64,000 nt of DNA from Actinomycetota bacterium (GTDB taxonomy: Bacteria > Actinomycetota > Acidimicrobiia > IMCC26256 > VFJJ01), in the NCBI GenBank assembly GCA_009886115.1, contig VFJJ01000051.1, positions 105,715 to 169,714 on the forward strand, written 5' to 3'. The position numbers and the translations under genes are program-made. Below the pieces are notes generated by a model. It was not told the DNA's origin. It did no database searches and worked only from the letters and a program-made list of their open reading frames with translations. Shown here one piece after another: positions 1,819 to 63,503 of this stretch. How positions within the stretch are numbered: the stretch's first letter is position 1; each line of letters opens with the position of its first letter.

Positions 1819-1905
1819 CGCGGCAAGGCCGAGCCTGGCCGTGATGGCGGCGATACCGAAGTCGGCGAGCTTGGCCTGGCCGAACCGGTCGATGAGGCTG
1901 TTCTC
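1819..1905 (-). pseudogene. Ser/Thr protein kinase remnant (subdomains VIb-VII)
   Basis: Reverse-strand peptide GGRDPENSLIDRFGQAKLADFGIAAI resembles kinase catalytic loop plus DFG segment; nothing else of the kinase is present. Confidence 0.55.
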
Positions 1906-2062
1906 AGGGTCCCGCCCACCGACGTGATCCCGACGATGTCGGTCGAGACGCCGTAGGCCGCCTCCCGTTCGTCCCGCCGTTCGGCAGCCCACCCGATGAC
2001 CATGCTGCCACACCCGGACGTCGGGCCGGGCCGCTCGGCCCGCGCGCCAACGGCGGGCGTGC

Positions 2063-3355
2063 TCAGGCGGCGGTGTGATGGGTGCGTGGCCGTGTGGATG
2101 GTGACCCGGTGAGTCCGGTGAGCCAGTTCCGGGTGTGCTCGGAGAGCATGTCGGGTTCTGATCGTGGAATGTGGATGTGCCCGTCTGGTCGTGTGAGCGT
2201 GACCGTGTCGGTGTCGACATGGTAGGTGAGCTGCCATCGCCCTTCGTGGACCAGATGATGATGATGCCAGCAGAGACTCACCAGATTCTCCGGCTCGGTG
2301 AACCCGTCATATGCCCAATGGGTCACATGGTGATGCTCCAACCAGACCGTCCGGTCACACCGGGGCCAACGGCACCGGAACCGGTCACGACGGTTCACGA
2401 TCCGGGCCATCCACGGCGGGACCCGCCTGGATTCCCGGCCGATCCCGACAGTGCGACCGGACGGATCGTCGGCGATCATCTGCCAACGGCAGTCACACGC
2501 CAGGCGCCGGGCCGTCTCATCGGCGATCGCCCAACCATTCCCGATCGTCGCCGGCTCGACCGGGACCCGGGAGGGCTCGCTCCGGCTCGGACCGGTCGGC
2601 TGGCCACCCTCACCATCAACCGGCACATCAGCTTCAGAATCGCTGGCGAGCCGTTCGACCGGGACATGCACAACCACCAAAGGCCGGGCCGGCTGTTGAG
2701 CGAGGAGCTGCGGTTCGCCGGCACACAGGTTCACGAGCGCATCAGCCAGCCGGGCCCCACGCCTGACCGGTTCAGCATCAGGGAGCCTGCCTTCCTCGGG
2801 GAGCAGTTCGGCGAGCCGGTTGAGCGCCCCGTGGACGATCTCGGCCTGCTCACCTGAGAGCCGACCCCGGATCCGCAACGTAGCGCCAGGCTCGCGGATC
2901 AACTGCAGGTACCGTTGCCGGTGCTGTTCGACCTCGTCTTTCGCCGTGACCGGTTTGAGGGCCCTGGCGTTGACCATCGTCGCGTGATACGTCCAACCGG
3001 GCGCCTGGGCAGCCAGCTCGGCATCGGTGTCGGATGTGGCAACGGCGGCGAGGACGACCAGTTGATCCCACGAGATCCGCCCCTCGGCGAACGCCTCCAT
3101 CAGCGCCGGGATCTGCGGGGCCTTGACGGCGACCTCGACGACGCGTCGTGCCGTCGTCAACGACAGGTTGACCTGGGCGGCGAGCCAGGATGCCGGGTCG
3201 CGCATGCCGTCGACAAGATGGCCTTGCCGTTCGATGAACGCGGCCATGACGTCGAGCAGCTCGGCGTACACGGCGTTCGTGAGTGCGTAGAGCTGACCGA
3301 TCGTGCCGGCCAGGTCGTCGAGCTCACAGTCACGATACCGATCCGCTTCCATCAC
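2063..3355 (-). CDS. DUF222 / HNH endonuclease domain protein (13E12 repeat family), copy 1
   Basis: N-terminal DUF222-like CELDDLAGTIGQL...ASWLAAQVNLSLTTARR; C-terminal HNH RDRFRCRWPRCDRTVWLEHHHVTHWAYDGFTEPENLVSLCWHHHHLVHEG. Confidence 0.9.
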   Translation of the reverse strand: MMEADRYRDCELDDLAGTIGQLYALTNAVYAELLDVMAAFIERQGHLVDGMRDPASWLAAQVNLSLTTARRVVEVAVKAPQIPALMEAFAEGRISWDQLVVLAAVATSDTDAELAAQAPGWTYHATMVNARALKPVTAKDEVEQHRQRYLQLIREPGATLRIRGRLSGEQAEIVHGALNRLAELLPEEGRLPDAEPVRRGARLADALVNLCAGEPQLLAQQPARPLVVVHVPVERLASDSEADVPVDGEGGQPTGPSRSEPSRVPVEPATIGNGWAIADETARRLACDCRWQMIADDPSGRTVGIGRESRRVPPWMARIVNRRDRFRCRWPRCDRTVWLEHHHVTHWAYDGFTEPENLVSLCWHHHHLVHEGRWQLTYHVDTDTVTLTRPDGHIHIPRSEPDMLSEHTRNWLTGLTGSPSTRPRTHHTAA

Positions 3356-3844
3356 GGTTCATGGTACCAGATGGGTATGACAGCAACCCCAGAATACCGC
3401 CAGATTACGGGAAAGAATTCTTGGCAGATCATTGATACTAGAGACCGAGATGGCGACCCGCCGGTCGTGACGACGCCCCACAGTTGGAGCGAGTGGAGGG
3501 TGGAGTTACGGCATCCGATACATCCGATTACCGATCTCCGCCCAGTCGCGCCACCAGCGGCAGGGATCCCCCGGAAGGACGCTCAGGAGCCGGCTCCACC
3601 GAGCGCCCCCGGTTCTCGATCGCTCAAGTGCCCGGCTCGACCGGCGAAAGGGCACCCGCGCGCCGCCGGTCGAGCCGAGCTCGGGTTCCAAGCGCACCAG
3701 CACCTCATGGCTGCCGTTGCGGACCCTGCCCACCAGTTCGTTCATGGAGCGGGTGCGGACAGCCACTCGCTCAGACCCTCCCCCAACCCCCAATCCCCCT
3801 GCTCGTACCGGGACCAGTTCGGGTCCCAGTTCGATGAGCGACGA

Positions 3845-10507: not shown

Positions 10508-11611
10508 ATGCGCGGGATCGTCTACACCGGAGAAGCAGCCGAGATCCGCACCGATGTGGAGGTGCGCGGGCCCGGTCCATCGGAGGTGCTCGTGCGCATC
10601 GCTGCGGCGGGCGTGTGCCACAGCGACATCAGTTGCCTCGATGGCACCATCCCCTGGCCCACCCCGTTTCTGATGGGTCACGAGGGCGCCGGCGTGGTCG
10701 AAGAGGTCGGCTCCGAGGTCACCCAGGTCAAGAAGGGCGACCACGTCGTCGTGGCCACCATCTCGTCGTGCGGCAAGTGCCGCTGGTGCGGCATCGGCAA
10801 GACCTCGTGGTGCCGCTCCACGCTGGCCAACCGGCACGAGCCCTTCACCGTCGGCGGTGTGAAGGCCGGCAACTTCGCGGCGACGTCGTCGTTCGCCGAG
10901 GTGACGCTGATCAAGGAGATCCAGGCCGTCAAGATCCCCAAGGACGTGCCGCTCACCTCGGCGTGTCTCATCGCCTGCGGTGTCGTCACCGGCCTGGGCT
11001 CGGTGTTCAACCGGGCCAACATCCAACCGGGCCAGACCGCCGCGGTGTTCGGCGCGGGCGGCGTGGGCCTGTCGGTCATCCAGGCGCTGCGCATCAAGGC
11101 CGCGTCGCGCATCGTGGCCGTCGACGCCGTGGCCGGCAAAGCCGAGCTGGCCTTGAAGATGGGCGCCACCGACTTCGTCAACGCCTCCGAGGTCGACAGT
11201 GCCGAGGCCATCCGCGAGCTGTTCCCCCACAGCGCCGAGATGGTGCGTGGCCCCTTCGGTGCCGGCGGCGTCGACTGGTCGTTCGAGTGCGTCGGCCATC
11301 CGAAGGTGCTGGAGGCCGCGATCGAGGTGCTCGACTGGGGCGGCATCTGCGTCTCGGTCGGCCAACCCGCCCCCGGCGTCACCGTGCCCGTCCCCATCAC
11401 CCACCTCAACCAGGTCGACCGGGGTCTCATCGGCTCCCGTGCCGGCGGCGTCCGCCCCCAGCACGACATCCCGATGATCGTGCAGCTCTACCGCCAGGGC
11501 CTGTTCGACCTCGACTCCATGGTGTCGAAGACCTACCCCATGGAGGACTTCCACACCGTCGTCGACGACATGCACCACGGCAAGCTCGCACGCGGCGTCC
11601 TGACGTTCTGA
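10508..11611 (+). CDS. zinc-dependent alcohol dehydrogenase
   Basis: GVCHSDIS, GHEGAGVVEEVG, structural zinc CGKCRWCGIGKTSWC, GAGGVGLSVIQ. Confidence 0.92.
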   Translation: MRGIVYTGEAAEIRTDVEVRGPGPSEVLVRIAAAGVCHSDISCLDGTIPWPTPFLMGHEGAGVVEEVGSEVTQVKKGDHVVVATISSCGKCRWCGIGKTSWCRSTLANRHEPFTVGGVKAGNFAATSSFAEVTLIKEIQAVKIPKDVPLTSACLIACGVVTGLGSVFNRANIQPGQTAAVFGAGGVGLSVIQALRIKAASRIVAVDAVAGKAELALKMGATDFVNASEVDSAEAIRELFPHSAEMVRGPFGAGGVDWSFECVGHPKVLEAAIEVLDWGGICVSVGQPAPGVTVPVPITHLNQVDRGLIGSRAGGVRPQHDIPMIVQLYRQGLFDLDSMVSKTYPMEDFHTVVDDMHHGKLARGVLTF

Positions 11612-11957: not shown

Positions 11958-12300
11958 GTGGCCGACGAGGCACCGTACATGCGTGTCGAGGTGCCCGGGT
12001 TCGTGCTCCACGAGGAGCTGGGCCGGGGCGGCTACGCCGTGGTGTTCCGGGCCGCCCAGACGACGGTCGACGGTGGGGCGCACCTGCCGCTACCACGGCA
12101 GCCGGTAGCGACGAGACCATCAACGAGCGCACCACGTCGCTGGCCGTAACGACAACAGCGCCAGAGACGACGACGAGTGAGGCGACGGCACCCGAACGGC
12201 AACGATTCGCGGTCACCGACACCATCCCTGTCGGTGGCAGTCCTCAACCGTTCGTGTTGGCAGACAACGCCCTCTGGATAGCGTCGTCGACCTCGGCCCC
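11958..12300 (+). pseudogene. Ser/Thr kinase remnant: P-loop fragment joined out of frame to a sensor-domain fragment
   Basis: VPGFVLHEELGRGGYAVVFRAAQTTVDG (kinase glycine loop) in one frame, then TTSLAVTTTAPETTTSEATAPERQRFAVTDTIPVGGSPQPFVLADNALWIASSTS (linker plus YVTN/NHL-like) in another; the kinase core is missing. Confidence 0.6.
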
Positions 12301-12518
12301 GATGTGCTCGCGTTCCTCTGGCGAACGTCCCGTCGAGGACGGTCTCCTCCAGGTAGCCGAGGAGCTCATCGCGCCGCAGGGACAAGACCCGTCGACGTTC
12401 AGCGGACCCACGTTCGAGCTCATTGCGGAGGCGCCGGGGAATGCCTGGGTGTTGCACCGGCGACTCCAGCGCTCGCTGGTTCGGTTCGGCGGTGTTGCTG
12501 GTTGGCGACGGCCTGGGT

Positions 12519-13910
12519 TCAGGCGGCGGTGGTGCGGCCGGGTGGTGCGTCAGCGAGTTCGGCTAGCCATTGTCGGGTTTTCTCGGTGAGCCCGGGCGGG
12601 TGTTCGGGTGGTAGATATTCGCGTCCGTCTGGTCGAATCACCGTGACTTTGTCGGCGTGAGCATTGAACATGATCTGCCATCGTCCTTCATGAGCGAGAT
12701 GGTGATGATGCCAACAGAGATTCAGAAGATTCTCTGGCTCGGTCAGGCCGAGATTGGCCCAATGGGCGACATGGTGATGTTCGAGCCAGACGGTCCGGTC
12801 ACATCCGGGCCATCGGCAACGATGCTGATCGCGATGATCGACGATCCGGGCCATCCACGGTGGGATCCGGCGTGACTCACGGCCGATCCCGACGGTCAGG
12901 CCGGTCTGGTCGTCAGCGACGACCTGCCAACGACAATCACATGCGATTCGGCGCGCGGTTTCACCCGCGATCGCCCAACCAGCCCCCATCGTCGGCCCAA
13001 CCAACGGTGCACCAGCCCGACCCCCACCGCGACCGCCGGCACCCGTAGCGCTTGCAGCCAGAACGCCAGCACCCGTGTCACCGGCTTCCGTGTCGCAGCC
13101 GTGCTCGTCGTGCTCGTCGTGGTCGTCGCGCTGGTCGTGCCCGCGGTGCTCGTTGCTGTGCTGGTTGGTGTGGGTGACGGGTGGTTCGTCGGCGAGTTGC
13201 TCGGCGGTGACGTGAACGATCACGAGGGGCCGGGCCGGGTTCTGCGCGGTGATCTGGGGATCACCGGCGCACAGGTTCACGAGCACGTCAGCCATCCGCG
13301 CGGCTCGCGGTTCGGGTCCGCCTTCGGGCGTGTCCTCGGGGAGCACGGTCGGTCGGGGGAGGCTGTCGACGAGCCTGTTCAGGACGGTCTCGACGATCTC
13401 GGCCTGCTCACCAGCAAGTCGACCCCGGATCTGCAACGTCGAGTCCTTGCGACGCAGGAGTTGCACGAACCGGTCACGATGCTGATCGAACGCTTCCTTC
13501 TCCGAGACCGGCCGCAACGCGCGGGCATGCATCACCGTTTGATTGCACGACCAGCCCGGCGCCGCTTCGGCCAGATCAGCCTCAGTCTCGGGAGTTGCGA
13601 CCGCAGCCAGAAGCACGAGCTGGTCCCAAGAGATCCGACCTTCACGCCACGCATCCATCAACGCCGGGATCTCCTCAGCGCCCAGTGCGACGTCGACCTC
13701 TCGCCGCGCGGTGGCCAACGACAGGTTCAACCGGGCTGCGAGCCAGGACGCCACGGTCGGCATCCCGTCGTACAGGTGGCCTTTCCGTTCGTTGAACACC
13801 GCGATCACCTCGAGGTACTCGGAATGGATCGCGGTCATCAACGCCCGGAGCTGACCCAGCGTCTCCGCCAGATCATCCAACTCGCAATCCCCGAACCGAG
13901 CCGTATCCAT
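12519..13910 (-). CDS. DUF222 / HNH endonuclease domain protein (13E12 repeat family), copy 2
   Basis: Paralogue of copy 1: DTARFGDCELDDLAETLGQLRAL...; HNH RDQHRCRWPGCDRTVWLEHHHVAHWANLGLTEPENLLNLCWHHHHLAHEG. Start chosen by alignment to copy 1; the 602-aa ORF extends into non-conserved sequence. Confidence 0.88.
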   Translation of the reverse strand: MDTARFGDCELDDLAETLGQLRALMTAIHSEYLEVIAVFNERKGHLYDGMPTVASWLAARLNLSLATARREVDVALGAEEIPALMDAWREGRISWDQLVLLAAVATPETEADLAEAAPGWSCNQTVMHARALRPVSEKEAFDQHRDRFVQLLRRKDSTLQIRGRLAGEQAEIVETVLNRLVDSLPRPTVLPEDTPEGGPEPRAARMADVLVNLCAGDPQITAQNPARPLVIVHVTAEQLADEPPVTHTNQHSNEHRGHDQRDDHDEHDEHGCDTEAGDTGAGVLAASATGAGGRGGGRAGAPLVGPTMGAGWAIAGETARRIACDCRWQVVADDQTGLTVGIGRESRRIPPWMARIVDHRDQHRCRWPGCDRTVWLEHHHVAHWANLGLTEPENLLNLCWHHHHLAHEGRWQIMFNAHADKVTVIRPDGREYLPPEHPPGLTEKTRQWLAELADAPPGRTTAA

Positions 13911-14130
13911 CACCGACATGATACCAGCTGGGTGTGACAGTAACTCCTCGATATGAGCACCGGCTGAGATGTTCTTCACTCGATCATATGGAAGACAGGG
14001 GACGGCAGTTTCGATCGAGCCTGACACACCTCTCCTGGCGTCCTGGTGAGCCTCACCCGACGGATCTGTACAGTCACACAACGCACCGGAGTCGGGGCGG
14101 CGTCGACGGCAACGGAGCATGGCTGCGGTG

Positions 14131-51268: not shown

Positions 51269-52501
51269 CTACACCACCGCGCCGGCGAGGCCTTTCTTCA
51301 ACGCCGAGTTGGCTCCGTCGGGAAGACCGTCGAGCGGCGTGGCGAGCTCGTCGACCGTGGGGCCGTACCGAGCCGCGATGGGGGCCAGCGAGTCGAGCGA
51401 GAACTCGTACATCTCGGCGGCGTTGGTGGCCAGGATCTGGTGCAGCTCGGCCGGCGTTCGCTCGTGAAAGAGCTGACGCAGGTGCTCGCGAGTGAACGGG
51501 TGTGTGCCCTCGTCGTGGGGATAGTCGCTCCCCCACATGAACCGCTCGATGCCGAGCTCGTCGAGCACGGCGGCGTCGGCCCACGAGGGCTGCGACACCG
51601 CAACATGGCAGTTCTGCTTGAAGTAGTCGGTGGCCGACTGCGGGAGGATGTGCTCCTTGGTGTACTTGATCTCGCCGGTCTCGCCGGTGTCGCGGATCGA
51701 GGCCAGCGTGGCGTCGAGCCGACGCAGCAGCGGTGGCAGCCAGGCGCAGCCCATCTCGGCCATCACGAACTTCATGTTCGGATGCCGCTCGAACACACCG
51801 CCCATGAGCATGTGCATGAATGGGCGCTGCGAGTGGAAGTGGGCCTCGGTGATGTAGAGGAGCTGCGCCACCGGCTCCTTGCCGTAGTCGGGAACACCAG
51901 TCCCCCCATGGGCATTGACGGGAACACCCATTTCCTCGGCCGCGACCCAGAACGGGTCGTAGTACCGGTCGAAGAGCGGCTTGACCCAGGTGCAGTCGGG
52001 CGGAACATTCGGGATGAGCACCCCGCCGCGCAGGCCGTTGTCCTTGATGAAACGCAGATCCTCGAGCGCGTCGTCGATGTCGTTGAAGAACACCTGACCC
52101 ACACCCGCCCGTTGCGCAGGGAACTCATTGCACCACTCGACCAGCCACCGGTTGTGGGCCCGGATCCCCGCCAGCCGATGTGCGTAGTCCTCGGGCCGCG
52201 GTGGCGCCGCGAAGAGCACGAAGCTCGGGAAGAACGGCGGCACCGTGTTGGGGTAGATGACCTCGCCCACCACCCCGTCGGCGAGTTGCTGGCTGTTGCG
52301 CATCTCGTTGTCCCAGTTGCGCAACCGCCGGTTGTCGCCCAGATCCTTGAACGGGTTCTTGTACTTCCCCCGCCACGCGTCGAAGTCGTCCAGGAACGCC
52401 GGGTCGAGGTGCTCGCGGTATGCCGCGTGGCTCCCACCCCCGTGACTGTCGGCCGTGATGATCGTGTAGCGATCCGTCGCCTTGCTCGGTGCTGTCGCCA
52501 T
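51269..52501 (-). CDS. amidohydrolase family protein (metal-dependent TIM barrel)
   Basis: YTIITADSHGGGSHAAYREHLDPAFLDDF, VNAHGGTG, FMWGSDYPHDEGTHPFTREHL. Confidence 0.88.
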   Translation of the reverse strand: MATAPSKATDRYTIITADSHGGGSHAAYREHLDPAFLDDFDAWRGKYKNPFKDLGDNRRLRNWDNEMRNSQQLADGVVGEVIYPNTVPPFFPSFVLFAAPPRPEDYAHRLAGIRAHNRWLVEWCNEFPAQRAGVGQVFFNDIDDALEDLRFIKDNGLRGGVLIPNVPPDCTWVKPLFDRYYDPFWVAAEEMGVPVNAHGGTGVPDYGKEPVAQLLYITEAHFHSQRPFMHMLMGGVFERHPNMKFVMAEMGCAWLPPLLRRLDATLASIRDTGETGEIKYTKEHILPQSATDYFKQNCHVAVSQPSWADAAVLDELGIERFMWGSDYPHDEGTHPFTREHLRQLFHERTPAELHQILATNAAEMYEFSLDSLAPIAARYGPTVDELATPLDGLPDGANSALKKGLAGAVV

Positions 52502-52736
52502 CGTGGGAGAGTCCTCCTCGGTCTGGTGGTCGGGGCCGCCCTGATCGGCCCCCGCCTGCTCCCCAACCCTACGCCGCTCACTGTCCGACAAGCCCGTGCG
52601 GGCGGACACCACCCCGCATCGGTGATCGGACACAACCCCGGCCGAGCGGTGGGCACGACGACGTCACAGGGCACGTCCAACTGCCCACTGCTCGGAGTCG
52701 CTTCAGGCGGGACCGACCGCGCCCGGGTGGCGGAGC

Positions 52737-53249
52737 TCAGCTCGAAGCCCCGGCCCGCTTTCGGTGGGCCTTCAGGGCCATCTCGAGGCCGGCCTTGACG
52801 AGCTTGTCGTTGTCCTTGGAGATGAAGCGGTGCACCCGACGTTCGAGCAGCACTCGCATGATCGGGTTGAAGACGTGGTAGGTCTCGCGGAAGTGCACCC
52901 GGGTGCTGCCGTCGCCGAGGTCCTCGTAACGCTGCCGGCCCTCGGCCTGTGACCACAAGGGTTTGCCGATGGCGTCGTACTTCGACGACACGCCGGGCAC
53001 GATCTCGCTGACCATCTCCCACGACTGGGCCCGTCCACCCGAGAGCAGATACCGGGGCACCCGGAACCAGCAGTGGCGCACCAGGCCGTCACCGTGCTCG
53101 TCACCCTCGTGGAGGATCTCGATGCGGACGGGGCCGTGCTCGATCACCCGCTTCTCGCCCGGCCCCAGCTTGGGATGGACCGGATGCGTCGCGGCCCACA
53201 ACTCCGACGGCGCTGCATCGATGATGAACGAGTACTCGTGCACCTGCAT
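52737..53249 (-). CDS. SRPBCC-like hypothetical protein
   Basis: MQVHEYSFIIDAAPSELWAATHP and GKPLWSQAEGRQRYEDLGDGSTRVHFRETYHVFNP pattern. Confidence 0.65.
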   Translation of the reverse strand: MQVHEYSFIIDAAPSELWAATHPVHPKLGPGEKRVIEHGPVRIEILHEGDEHGDGLVRHCWFRVPRYLLSGGRAQSWEMVSEIVPGVSSKYDAIGKPLWSQAEGRQRYEDLGDGSTRVHFRETYHVFNPIMRVLLERRVHRFISKDNDKLVKAGLEMALKAHRKRAGASS

Positions 53250-53272
53250 TGGATGGCCTCCTTGGACGGCCG

Positions 53273-53488
53273 TCAGAGCGAGAAGTCGATGACGGTACGG
53301 GCGACGGTGACGGCCCGCATGGCGTCGTAGCCCTCATTGATCTCGGCGAGGGGACGGCGCGCCGACACCATCTCGTCGAGCAGCAGCCGGCCGTCGAGAT
53401 ACATCTCGATGTAGGCCGGCATGTCGGAGCGGAACTGGTTCGAGCCCATCAGCGAGCCCTGGATCCGCTTCTCGGTGGCGAACAGTCC
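53273..53488 (-). pseudogene. zinc-type alcohol dehydrogenase, C-terminal fragment only
   Basis: ATEKRIQGSLMGSNQFRSDMPAYIEMYLDGRLLLDEMVSARRPLAEINEGYDAMRAVTVARTVIDF is a typical ADH C-terminus; no ADH sequence is found upstream of it. Confidence 0.75.
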
Positions 53489-53649
53489 AGCCGACCGGGG
53501 ACGGTGTTCAGGACGGCTGCACGCATCGCTGCTCCCCCGTTGGTCGATGGCCGAGGTGGCCGCCTGCAGGCTACGAGCTGCGCGAGATTCTTCGCCAGAT
53601 CGTCGGAATTCCCTTGTGTTCATTGGGGTATCGGTGTAGCATCGAATGT

Positions 53650-54936
53650 ATGTTCGGGTGGGGTGAAGGATCCGGCGACGAGCTCGGCGAGCAGTTCGGT
53701 GGGCAGTTCGCGGCCTGGTTCGAACGGCTCGACGTCACCGCCGACCCCGACCTGATCGCGGCCGGGTTCTCGGTTCGTGACCATCTGTCGTGTGTGCTCA
53801 CCGGGGCTGTGTCACGACTCGACGCCGAGCGAGGCTGCGTGGCCGATGGGGCGTTGAGCACCCGGGCCTGGCTCCAGAACCAGGCCCGCCTCGACGAAGC
53901 CGAAGCCGCTCGCACGCTCAGGACGGCACGCCGGTTGCGACGCTGGCCGGTCACAACCTCCGCGTGGGAGTCCGGGCGACTTTCGGCCGGTCAGGTCACG
54001 GCGATCGTCAACCTCGTCGGTTCGAACGAACGGTTGGTCGCGTTGTTCGCTGAGCACGAGACCGAGATCATCGCCGGGCTCGCCGATCTCACCGCGTACG
54101 ACACGATGATCGCGATGCGCCGCTGGCGGCACCTCGCCAACCAGCAGATCGACACCGAACCGAACCCGACACCCGAACCCGACCCGGGGCCGGATGCTCA
54201 TCCCGATGATCGGCCCGAACCCGAGCCGGAACCGGTCGTGCAGTCGTTGCACCTCTCGGCCCATTTCGATGGGCACTGGCGCCTCGACGCCAACCTCGGC
54301 CCCGAAGGCGGCACGATCATCGACAAGGCCATCGACCTCGCGACACTCCCCGACATCGACCGCGACATCGACGGGCCCGGTGGCCGCTGGGGATCCGAAC
54401 GACGAGCCGACGCGCTCGTCGAGATCTGCCGGTCCTTCCTCGCACACCACGACCACGGCACCGCCAAGCCGCGCAACCGGCCCCACATCAACATCGTCGT
54501 CGACCTCCCCTGGCTCCACGGCCAGGCCGGCCGGGCTGAAACGATCGAAGGGCTCCCCCTCGACCGGCCCACCATCGAACGCCTGCTCTGCGACGCCGAC
54601 ATCCACCGGGTCATCACCAACGGACCCAGCGTGATCCTCGACTACGGACGAGCCACCCGCACCACCACCCCCGAACAATGGAACGCGTTACTGCTCCGCG
54701 ACCGGCACTGCACCTGGCCCGCCGGATGCACCATCGCCGCGAAACGCTGCCATGCCCATCACGAACCCGAGTGGATCCATAGCGGCACCACCAACATCAA
54801 CACCATGCGACTCCTCTGCACCGGCCACCACTGGCTCCGCCACCAACCCGGATGGCACGCCAAGATCCTCCCCGACACCACCTACCAAGTCACCAGTCCC
54901 AAGGGCAAGACCTTCACCAGCCGCCCCCGATGTTGA
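53650..54936 (+). CDS. DUF222 / HNH endonuclease domain protein, copy 3 (different subfamily from copies 1 and 2)
   Basis: DHLSCVLTGAVSRLDAERGCVADGALSTRAWLQNQARLDEAEAARTLRTARRL; HNH RDRHCTWPAGCTIAAKRCHAHHEPEWIHSGTTNINTMRLLCTGHHWLRHQPGW. Confidence 0.9.
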   Translation: MFGWGEGSGDELGEQFGGQFAAWFERLDVTADPDLIAAGFSVRDHLSCVLTGAVSRLDAERGCVADGALSTRAWLQNQARLDEAEAARTLRTARRLRRWPVTTSAWESGRLSAGQVTAIVNLVGSNERLVALFAEHETEIIAGLADLTAYDTMIAMRRWRHLANQQIDTEPNPTPEPDPGPDAHPDDRPEPEPEPVVQSLHLSAHFDGHWRLDANLGPEGGTIIDKAIDLATLPDIDRDIDGPGGRWGSERRADALVEICRSFLAHHDHGTAKPRNRPHINIVVDLPWLHGQAGRAETIEGLPLDRPTIERLLCDADIHRVITNGPSVILDYGRATRTTTPEQWNALLLRDRHCTWPAGCTIAAKRCHAHHEPEWIHSGTTNINTMRLLCTGHHWLRHQPGWHAKILPDTTYQVTSPKGKTFTSRPRC

Positions 54937-54994
54937 GATCCCATTCGTGCGTAGGCTCCAATGGGCGAGCGGCCAGGCGGCGAGAGGAGCGGCC

Positions 54995-56050
54995 ATGAGG
55001 GCAGTCGTGATGCGCAGCGGGCAGCTCGTCGTCGACGACATCGCCGAGCCCACGCCGGGTCCGGGCCAGGCCCTCGTGGAGGTGCTGGCCTGTGGGATCT
55101 GCGGCTCCGACCTCCACGCGCTGGCCCACACCGACGACTTCGCCGAGACCGCAGCCATCTCCGGCGATGCGCTGTTCCGGTTCCGGCCCGAGCGCGACCT
55201 CGTGATGGGACATGAGATGTGCACCCGGGTGCTCGACGTGCACCCGTCGGTCACCTCGGTGCGGACGGGCGACGTGCTCGTCGGGATGCCGATCGTGATC
55301 GAGCCCGACGGGGTCCACTGCGTCGGTTACACCAACGACCACAACGGTGGTTTCGCCGAGCGCATGGTGATCACCGCCGACGTGGCGATCCCCGTCCCTG
55401 CCGATGTCGACCCCCGGCACGCCGCGCTCGCCGATCCCATCGCCGTCGGCATCAACGGGGTCTGGCGCTCGCGCGCCGAAGCGGGAAGGGCCGCGTACGT
55501 CGCCGGCTGTGGTCCCATCGGGCTGGGAACCATCCTGGCTCTGCGTCGGGCAGGGCTGGGGCCGATCATCGCTGCCGACCATTCGCCGCTGCGCCGACGT
55601 CTCGCCGAGCACTGTGGCGCCGATGAGGTGCTCGACCCGGGAACGACAGACCTGGCGAGTGCCATGGGACGGTTACCGACCGACAGCGGGCATCCGCCGG
55701 TGCTGTTCGACTGCGTCGGTGTCGCCGGCCTCATCGACCAGTTCATCGTGGCCGCTCCCCGTCGAAGCACCGTGGTCGTGCTCGGCGCGTGCATGCCCCC
55801 CGACCGCTTCCGGCCGATGCTGGCGCAATGGCGCGATCTCACGTTCGAGTTCGTGCTCTCGGGCCCGCCCGACAGCTACAACCAGGCGTTGGCCATCGTT
55901 GCCGCTGCGCCTGTCGACCTCGAGCCCCTCATCACCGCCAGCGTGGGACTCGATGGCGTGGCGCAGGCCTTTCGGGATCTGGCCGATCCGGCCGAGCACT
56001 GCAAGATCATGGTCTGCCCCTCGGCGCCGAAGGACGCCGAAGAGCGCTGA
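54995..56050 (+). CDS. zinc-binding alcohol dehydrogenase family protein
   Basis: CGICGSDLHAL, GHEMCTRVLDVHP, AYVAGCGPIGLGTILALRRAG. Confidence 0.9.
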   Translation: MRAVVMRSGQLVVDDIAEPTPGPGQALVEVLACGICGSDLHALAHTDDFAETAAISGDALFRFRPERDLVMGHEMCTRVLDVHPSVTSVRTGDVLVGMPIVIEPDGVHCVGYTNDHNGGFAERMVITADVAIPVPADVDPRHAALADPIAVGINGVWRSRAEAGRAAYVAGCGPIGLGTILALRRAGLGPIIAADHSPLRRRLAEHCGADEVLDPGTTDLASAMGRLPTDSGHPPVLFDCVGVAGLIDQFIVAAPRRSTVVVLGACMPPDRFRPMLAQWRDLTFEFVLSGPPDSYNQALAIVAAAPVDLEPLITASVGLDGVAQAFRDLADPAEHCKIMVCPSAPKDAEER

Positions 56051-62561: not shown

Positions 62562-62629
62562 TCGTCAACCCGTCGGCGACCGGTGGAGCGTTGCCCGATC
62601 AGGCGCCAGCGACGAATGAATCTCGTCGC

Positions 62630-62770
62630 CTGGCGTTCCTCGGAGCGAGCAGCGGCCACCTCGCCGGTCGACAGGCCGATGCCGATCCCGAACGGCGCCC
62701 GTCCCGCGGCGATCCAGGTCTCGTTGACCCCGGCCTGCACCGCGTGCATGGCGATGGCTACTGCCGCGCC
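62630..62770 (-). pseudogene. class III adenylate/guanylate cyclase fragment
   Basis: HAVQAGVNETWIAAGRAPFGIGIGLSTGEVAAARSEERQ resembles a cyclase catalytic core; downstream homology is lost. Confidence 0.55.
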
Positions 62771-63125
62771 GTCTCGGCGCGAGCGACCAGCAATCTGCCC
62801 TAGCCGGTCGACGCCCGCCGGCGCGAGGATCGGGAGGGAGTACGCGCCGATGTTGCGCCACTGCCGCCCCGCGAGCCCTCGTACCGGTACACGCCTCCGA
62901 GCGTCGAAGGCGGTACGTCCCCGACCGCAGCACAACCCGCAGCCTACGAGCACCCAACTCCCGTGCGCCCGACGAAGCGCCTCTTCGGGAAGCGACACGA
63001 TCAATCCGGCCTCGCCGGGCTGGTCGACCATCGGCACCGCGTCAGCGTAGAGCCATCGTCCCTACAGCAGACCGGGAGCGGGTCGACTCGCGTTCGTCGT
63101 CCGACAGGGCACAGGTCGCCACGCT

Positions 63126-63503
63126 CTACAGCAACACAGACCGAACGATCATCACGATCTGCTCAGCATCGTCGATCACGAGGTGCGCCTCGCCCATGGT
63201 GACGTCAGGGATGTCACCGGGTATCGCGCGTCGACCGCCCACGGATCGAGCAGCGCCAGGTCGACGCTCTCCGGGAGCGAACGCACCCGGTCAGGCACGA
63301 GAGTCCACGAGAGCCACGAGATCGTGGGTACGGGGGACCGGCGTGCCCGCCCAGACGAGCGTGGCCTTGAGCGCCTTCTCGGCCGCCTGCTGTGCGTGAA
63401 AGCACGCCAACCTGGGCGGCAGATCCGGGCCACCGATGAGCCGAACCGCAGCCGCCAGATCGGCCTCGGCGAAACCCATCCACTCGCCGGGCTCAGCCGA
63501 CAT
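63126..63503 (-). pseudogene. HEPN domain protein (MNT-HEPN partner), two apparent frameshifts
   Basis: MGFAEADLAAAVRLIGGPDLPPRLACFHAQQAAEKALKATLVWAGTPVPRTHDLVALVD | VPDRVRSLPESVDLALLDPWAVDARYP | GDIPDVTMGEAHLVIDDAEQIVMIVRSVLL lie in successive frames. Confidence 0.75.

Follow-up and report, generated by a model that had tools for sequence, protein, structure and literature searches.

DUF222-HNH genes of the 13E12 kind beside gene remnants in an uncultured actinobacterial lineage

In mycobacteria, the 13E12 genes are under the control of LexA (PMC4181829, PMC5005354), and REP13E12 has been described as a hot spot of gene conversion (PMC13061034). Deletions in M. avium are flanked by REP13E12 (PMC2323391, PMC3337245), and HNH endonucleases are found among the RecA-dependent genes induced by mitomycin C (PMC8151990). 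DUF222-HNH genes are abundant in actinobacteria, with at least one match to PF02720 in 48 of 58 genomes of the order studied here, and REP13E12 regions are still listed as being without a defined biological function in a 2026 preprint (PMC13061034). The window, the whole stretch of 64 kb of DNA that was analysed, contains three such genes (Table 1). Copy 3, the subject of this study, belongs to a set of about 15 DUF222-HNH nuclease genes of the 13E12/REP13E12 kind that are scattered over its host genome, and the preliminary description of an under-described element therefore gives way to membership in this family.

Table 1. Features of the window, with positions, strands and supporting evidence
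Feature	Position	Strand	Evidence
Protein-kinase catalytic-loop remnant, 3' side of copy 1	1843..1953	-	Own-genome search
DUF222-HNH copy 1 (group B); PafBC-like promoter at 3361-3382	2063..3355	-	Domain and promoter search
Kinase N-terminal (11964-12140) and sensor-domain (12146-12310) remnants, 3' side of copy 2	11964..12310	+	Own-genome search
DUF222-HNH copy 2 (group B); PafBC-like promoter at 13918-13939	12519..13910	-	Domain and promoter search
Amidohydrolase (PF04909), same strand as the ADH remnant	51269..52633	-	Domain search
SRPBCC/polyketide-cyclase-like gene, ~24 bp past the ADH stop	52737..53249	-	Domain search
Zn ADH remnant, NDMA-type, last ~67 of 370 residues	53273..53482	-	TIGR03989 profile; alignment to full-length homologues
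Stretch of ~125 nt between ADH break and HNH unit, with no recognisable origin	53483..53606	.	No ADH homology; no Rfam family
Copy 3 promoter: TTGTGT (53614-53619), 17-nt spacer, TAGCAT (53637-53642)	53607..53642	+	Kept among group A copies
LexA (SOS)-type box across the copy 3 start codon	53642..53657	+	Kept in group A
DUF222-HNH gene, copy 3, 428 aa	53650..54936	+	PF02720; alignment A1
DUF222 domain, copy 3 (C39:159496-160416)	53782..54702	+	Domain search
HNH nuclease motif (C..GC ... HxHH ... N ... C..HH...H), intact	54709..54843	+	Conserved columns, alignment A1
Second, intact Zn-dehydrogenase, 58 bp past the HNH stop	54995..56050	+	PF08240 1-103/104, PF00107 1-127/129

The DUF222 domain of copy 3 was identified with an E-value of 5.3e-18 and 65.8 bits against a cut-off of 24.4. 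The Pfam HNH model gave no match to copy 3; the cysteine, histidine and asparagine residues of the HNH motif were conserved in alignment A1, and copy 3 is a putative nuclease as judged from its sequence. The nearest paralogue was about 53% identical at the protein level. The start codon is probably the ATG at 53650, located inside the LexA-type box. Copy 3 had no match in the PDB by sequence or among the PADLOC models of anti-phage defence, and nothing was found by Rfam, introns included, in the region 53000-55500. The structure model of copy 3 (m9a632542e3c5, 53650-54936) was of low confidence (pTM 0.43). Its helical N-terminal DUF222 part weakly resembled the ParB/Noc central DNA-binding domain (E 0.14-1), and its C-terminus gave a McrA/Gme HNH match in the PDB; both are leads only.

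The minus strand beside copy 3 (53273-53482) contained only the last 67 of the 370 positions of an NDMA-type alcohol dehydrogenase (ADH). Positions 304-370 of the 370-position NCBIfam profile TIGR03989 (NDMA-dependent alcohol dehydrogenase) matched residues 7-73 when the minus strand was read from 53500 (E 4e-14), and the break was located at ~53482-53488, which confirmed the first estimate of an ADH reduced to its last ~65 codons and cut at about 53488. ADH relatives from 26 other genomes of the order, mostly of ~370-400 aa, aligned mainly through their last ~66-75 residues, and only residues 295-359 of a full-length relative of 359 residues in genome G020 matched this place, with 60% identity. 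The truncation is real and unambiguous. The break is ~115-125 nt from the promoter at the 5' end of the copy 3 unit and ~165 bp from the ATG, close to the ~160 bp first given for the HNH start, although the TTG start at 53614 lies upstream of the likely true start.

The ADH remnant, the SRPBCC gene and the amidohydrolase are closely spaced on one strand and resemble an operon. Among the relatives compared within the order, the three genes were not found side by side, and the amidohydrolase adjoined an ADH in one locus only (L092). The dehydrogenase on the other side of copy 3 was considered as the missing part of the ADH and rejected, because that gene is complete, encodes another Zn-dehydrogenase and is read from the opposite strand. 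A simple insertion splitting the ADH was also rejected, since the other half was not located across the unit and no matching N-terminal piece at 60% identity was found elsewhere in the host genome, which is 95.6% complete, so that its absence is not proof. The intact, different dehydrogenase after the HNH gene indicates that the front of the ADH was lost and not simply interrupted. The genomes compared within the order, in which the family of the window is not represented, included no pair with and without the ADH event, and the locus order was not conserved.

The promoter region of copy 3 is the conserved left end of the unit and is common to the copy on contig C123. The LexA-type box, TCGAATGTATGTTCGG (53642-53657), was the sole exact match of the LexA-box form in the 64-kb window and is a near-perfect fit to the actinobacterial LexA motif TCGAAC(N)4GTTCGA (PMC4181829). 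Two promoter groups can be distinguished among the 15 host copies. In the six copies of group A, copy 3 among them, a -35/-10 promoter precedes the LexA box, which spans the start codon. Copies 1 and 2 belong to group B, whose members show TGTCRTACC-(8 nt)-TANCAT and lack a LexA box; this sequence fits the RecA-independent (PafBC) promoter tTGTCRgtg-8nt-TannnT (PMC5656591) except for the 'gtg', and within the window this PafBC-like promoter was found at copies 1 and 2 only.

When loci of the order were searched for the LexA box in 280 nt around the domain start, with two mismatches or fewer allowed, the box was present at 20 of 29 loci compared with 2.8% of control windows. The PafBC-like promoter and the LexA box occurred together in all 24 units examined in G015, a complete, single-contig genome of the same order; as TGTC-N12-TANNNT plus the box, the combination was found in 24 of 24 units of G015 and at 17 of 18 loci of G032 and G036. 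One LexA and one tandem WYL (PafBC-like) pair is encoded in the host genome and in G015, and the lexA loci of G015 and G032 bear the same box type as the HNH units. From these motifs, the units look wired to the DNA-damage response, by the LexA box in group A and the PafBC-like promoter in group B, and LexA and PafBC would be expected to bind at the host units.

The information content of the aligned G015 units rose abruptly to ~1.9 bits exactly at TGTC, 22 nt before CGAAC, and dropped to zero past the stop codon, and copies with 82-88% identity had almost nothing in common outside these limits. Because conservation ends at the promoter and the stop codon, the duplicated unit consists of promoter and gene. 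The DUF222-HNH gene was alone in the unit, with no transposase, and no terminal inverted repeats were found at the unit ends. The DUF222-HNH protein was nearly absent from phage and plasmid records. Target-site duplication was not consistent, with a 28-bp direct repeat at L209 and none in L282. Gene-conversion mosaics among the G015 copies were modest, with patchy identity and one of 190 pairs qualifying under a strict criterion.

In order to compare orthologous sites, 21 were aligned within the genus g16 (REARRANGEMENTS; 59 kb of aligned flank), a small sample in which a locus may enter several comparisons, and intergenic DNA in general tolerates change more readily. Fourteen of the 21 sites were free of any change between aligned blocks that reached 200 nt. 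Three sites had a large indel close to the 5' end of a unit retained by both species: its edge was 4 nt away at the first, where G036 has lost 2.4 kb, 16 nt away at the second (0.7 kb) and 54 nt away at the third (an RCC1-like gene, 1.3 kb). A 2.1-kb segment containing a unit and a nucleotidyltransferase-like ORF was present in G032 and absent from G015 (L209 740-2854 compared with L242 ~2560-2587); its edge was 88 nt from the 5' end, and it was bounded by the 28-bp direct repeat, of which the empty G015 site has one copy. A 3-kb segment containing a unit and an RCC1-like gene (L282 340-3294) was found in G036 only, and the unit itself was decayed in G015 in one comparison (L281/L277). Farther away, one 0.3-kb indel was located ~1 kb and a 2.85-kb difference ~2.5 kb from a unit. 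Large indels thus cluster at the unit 5' edge or involve gain or loss of the unit together with a neighbour, and few lie elsewhere in the 59 kb.

Segments absent in sister species provided insertion-free alleles of the kind that had been called for, and they defined no consistent target duplication. G026 is without DUF222, and at the place where G015 and G032 have a unit it carries an intact GSA-like aminotransferase of class III (L238, G026:C108). Most unit positions were conserved between congeneric species; conserved positions across distant species had been named as evidence against a disruptive role, and the result goes partway in that direction. The pair L245/L240 was considered as a transposition of the unit and dropped, because the flanks of L245 match another, occupied G015 site. 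The 28-bp repeat at L209 is half of a hairpin (CGAGGTAGTAGGCGTC...GACGCTTACTACCTCG). RCC1-like repeat genes recur 5' of g16 HNH units (L215 2546-3924, L245, L282 340-3294), in one case gained together with the unit.

All three HNH genes of the window border truncated genes, as first described, with the ADH tail at copy 3 and kinase remnants at copies 1 and 2. The kinase remnants matched long kinase-like open frames (~460-880 codons) elsewhere in the host genome; the small kinase N-terminal piece was recognised by this own-genome search and not by Pfam. The larger genes that otherwise adjoin copies 1 and 2 (glycosyltransferase, ligase, SDR and the ADH at 10508-11611) look intact, with the reservation that the glycosyltransferase gave a partial Pfam match and the ligase was assessed from its length. 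The host genome (G000, a draft of 224 contigs) has 15 DUF222-HNH copies, several at contig ends, and G015 has 20 by domain search. A gene remnant was located within ~0.9 kb of at least six of the 15 host copies, as a plain count. These were copies 1-3 and the copies on C219 (TetR fragment), C72 (Gfo/Idh fragment) and C74 (truncated beta-propeller). The 5' flank of the C74 copy (L045) holds a truncated transmembrane and beta-propeller remnant of the same kind as that beside copy 2. The copy at L047 (G000:C132:14050) is itself cut off after ~125 codons. The long HNH-free gap at 62562-63435 appears by eye to contain HEPN-like and cyclase-like protein pieces, a gene graveyard with no HNH link.

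Taken as a claim that these genes mark or cause gene disruption, the preliminary view holds for marking, given at least six of 15 host copies and the 5'-edge indels in g16; causation would be a further step. The DUF222-HNH genes probably mark chromosome rearrangement and may promote it. In the preferred mechanism, DNA damage would lead to homologous recombination between dispersed HNH units, by a crossover or by gene conversion with an illegitimate far end. The damage-induced nuclease would possibly help, and nuclease-driven breakage could add to this. A deletion or replacement with its endpoint just upstream of the copy 3 unit would then have removed the front of the ADH. That the ADH was cut in this way, likely through damage and recombination between units, is held with about even confidence. 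Recombination at dispersed units is preferred because it explains one breakpoint near the unit with a random far end, the extra genes in gained segments and the otherwise stable unit positions. The 14 of 21 comparisons with no large change indicate that rearrangement at the units is not constant. Also against it, two of the three window remnants are on the 3' side whereas the g16 indels cluster on the 5' side, the HNH-free gap appears to hold remnants as well, and gene-conversion mosaics among the G015 copies are modest. The wider proposal, that the unit 5' edge is a DNA-damage-induced hot spot of recombination and deletion across Actinomycetota and that these families are SOS-triggered generators of genome rearrangement, seems unlikely.

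A serious rival is that the units are passive, persisting in non-essential, decaying intergenic stretches where truncated neighbours reflect tolerance and not action. The remnant-holding gap without HNH, the decayed copy in G015 and the truncated copy on C132, and the mostly stable unit positions within the genus are all consistent with such tolerance, but it does not predict breakpoints 4-54 nt from the unit edge in flanks that are otherwise 88-97% identical; it is considered possible, if somewhat doubtful. An autonomous mobile element, inserted in the ADH by transposition or homing with removal of the gene front, would account for the sharp, identical boundaries and unrelated flanks of copies with 82-88% identity, and for unit-bearing segments that one species has and its sisters lack, one with the 28-bp direct repeat (L209/L242). 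However, neither a transposase nor terminal inverted repeats were found, and neither an intron nor a consistent target duplication; the segments that differ between species include further genes next to the unit, and an intact, different dehydrogenase lies beyond the unit in place of the missing ADH half. With almost no phage or plasmid copies and mostly conserved positions within the genus, this origin is quite improbable; of the earlier proposal of a mobile or recombination-associated element, the edge indels stand and the hallmarks of transposition do not. A chimeric contig that joined ADH and HNH sequence by artefact or coincidence might be suspected in a draft of 224 contigs with several HNH copies at contig ends. 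Copy 3 is a poor site for a mis-join given its ~53% identity to the nearest paralogue, the junction lies outside the repeated unit, and G015, assembled as a single contig, shows junctions of a similar sort, which makes such an error very improbable.

When compared with known systems, the HNH units share with insertion sequences and transposons a multicopy state, sharply defined ends and flanks that are unrelated, but they have neither a transposase nor terminal inverted repeats, and target duplication is not regular. They resemble free-standing HNH homing endonucleases in that the whole unit is an HNH nuclease gene, although no relation to an intron, intein or homing site was found here and carriage by phages is rare. 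MSMEG_1275 is likewise a chromosomal, stress-induced actinobacterial HNH nuclease, and is reported to cleave host DNA and to kill cells on over-expression (PMC9416677). Unlike copy 3, it is reported there with an HNN-type motif and ArsR control.

The closest described system is 13E12/REP13E12 of Mycobacterium, which shares with the host family the DUF222 and HNH domains, many dispersed copies per genome and an SOS box. The host belongs to a different, uncultured actinobacterial lineage, in which some copies have a PafBC-like promoter and no LexA box, and phage attachment and integration are a feature of the Mycobacterium repeat. In a search mainly of literature outside subscription, no paper was found that, outside mycobacteria, connects unit boundaries with both types of DNA-damage promoter and with breakpoints at the 5' edge. 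The preferred reading is that copy 3 belongs to a 13E12-type family of DNA-damage-regulated HNH genes that mark rearrangement scars, with recombination at dispersed units as their cause. Copies of 13E12/REP13E12 flank deletions in M. avium (PMC2323391), like the remnants at the host copies, and the combination found here of discrete units, DNA-damage promoters of two types and indels at the 5' edge turns this anecdotal mycobacterial link into a hypothesis that can now be tested in a lineage far from pathogens.
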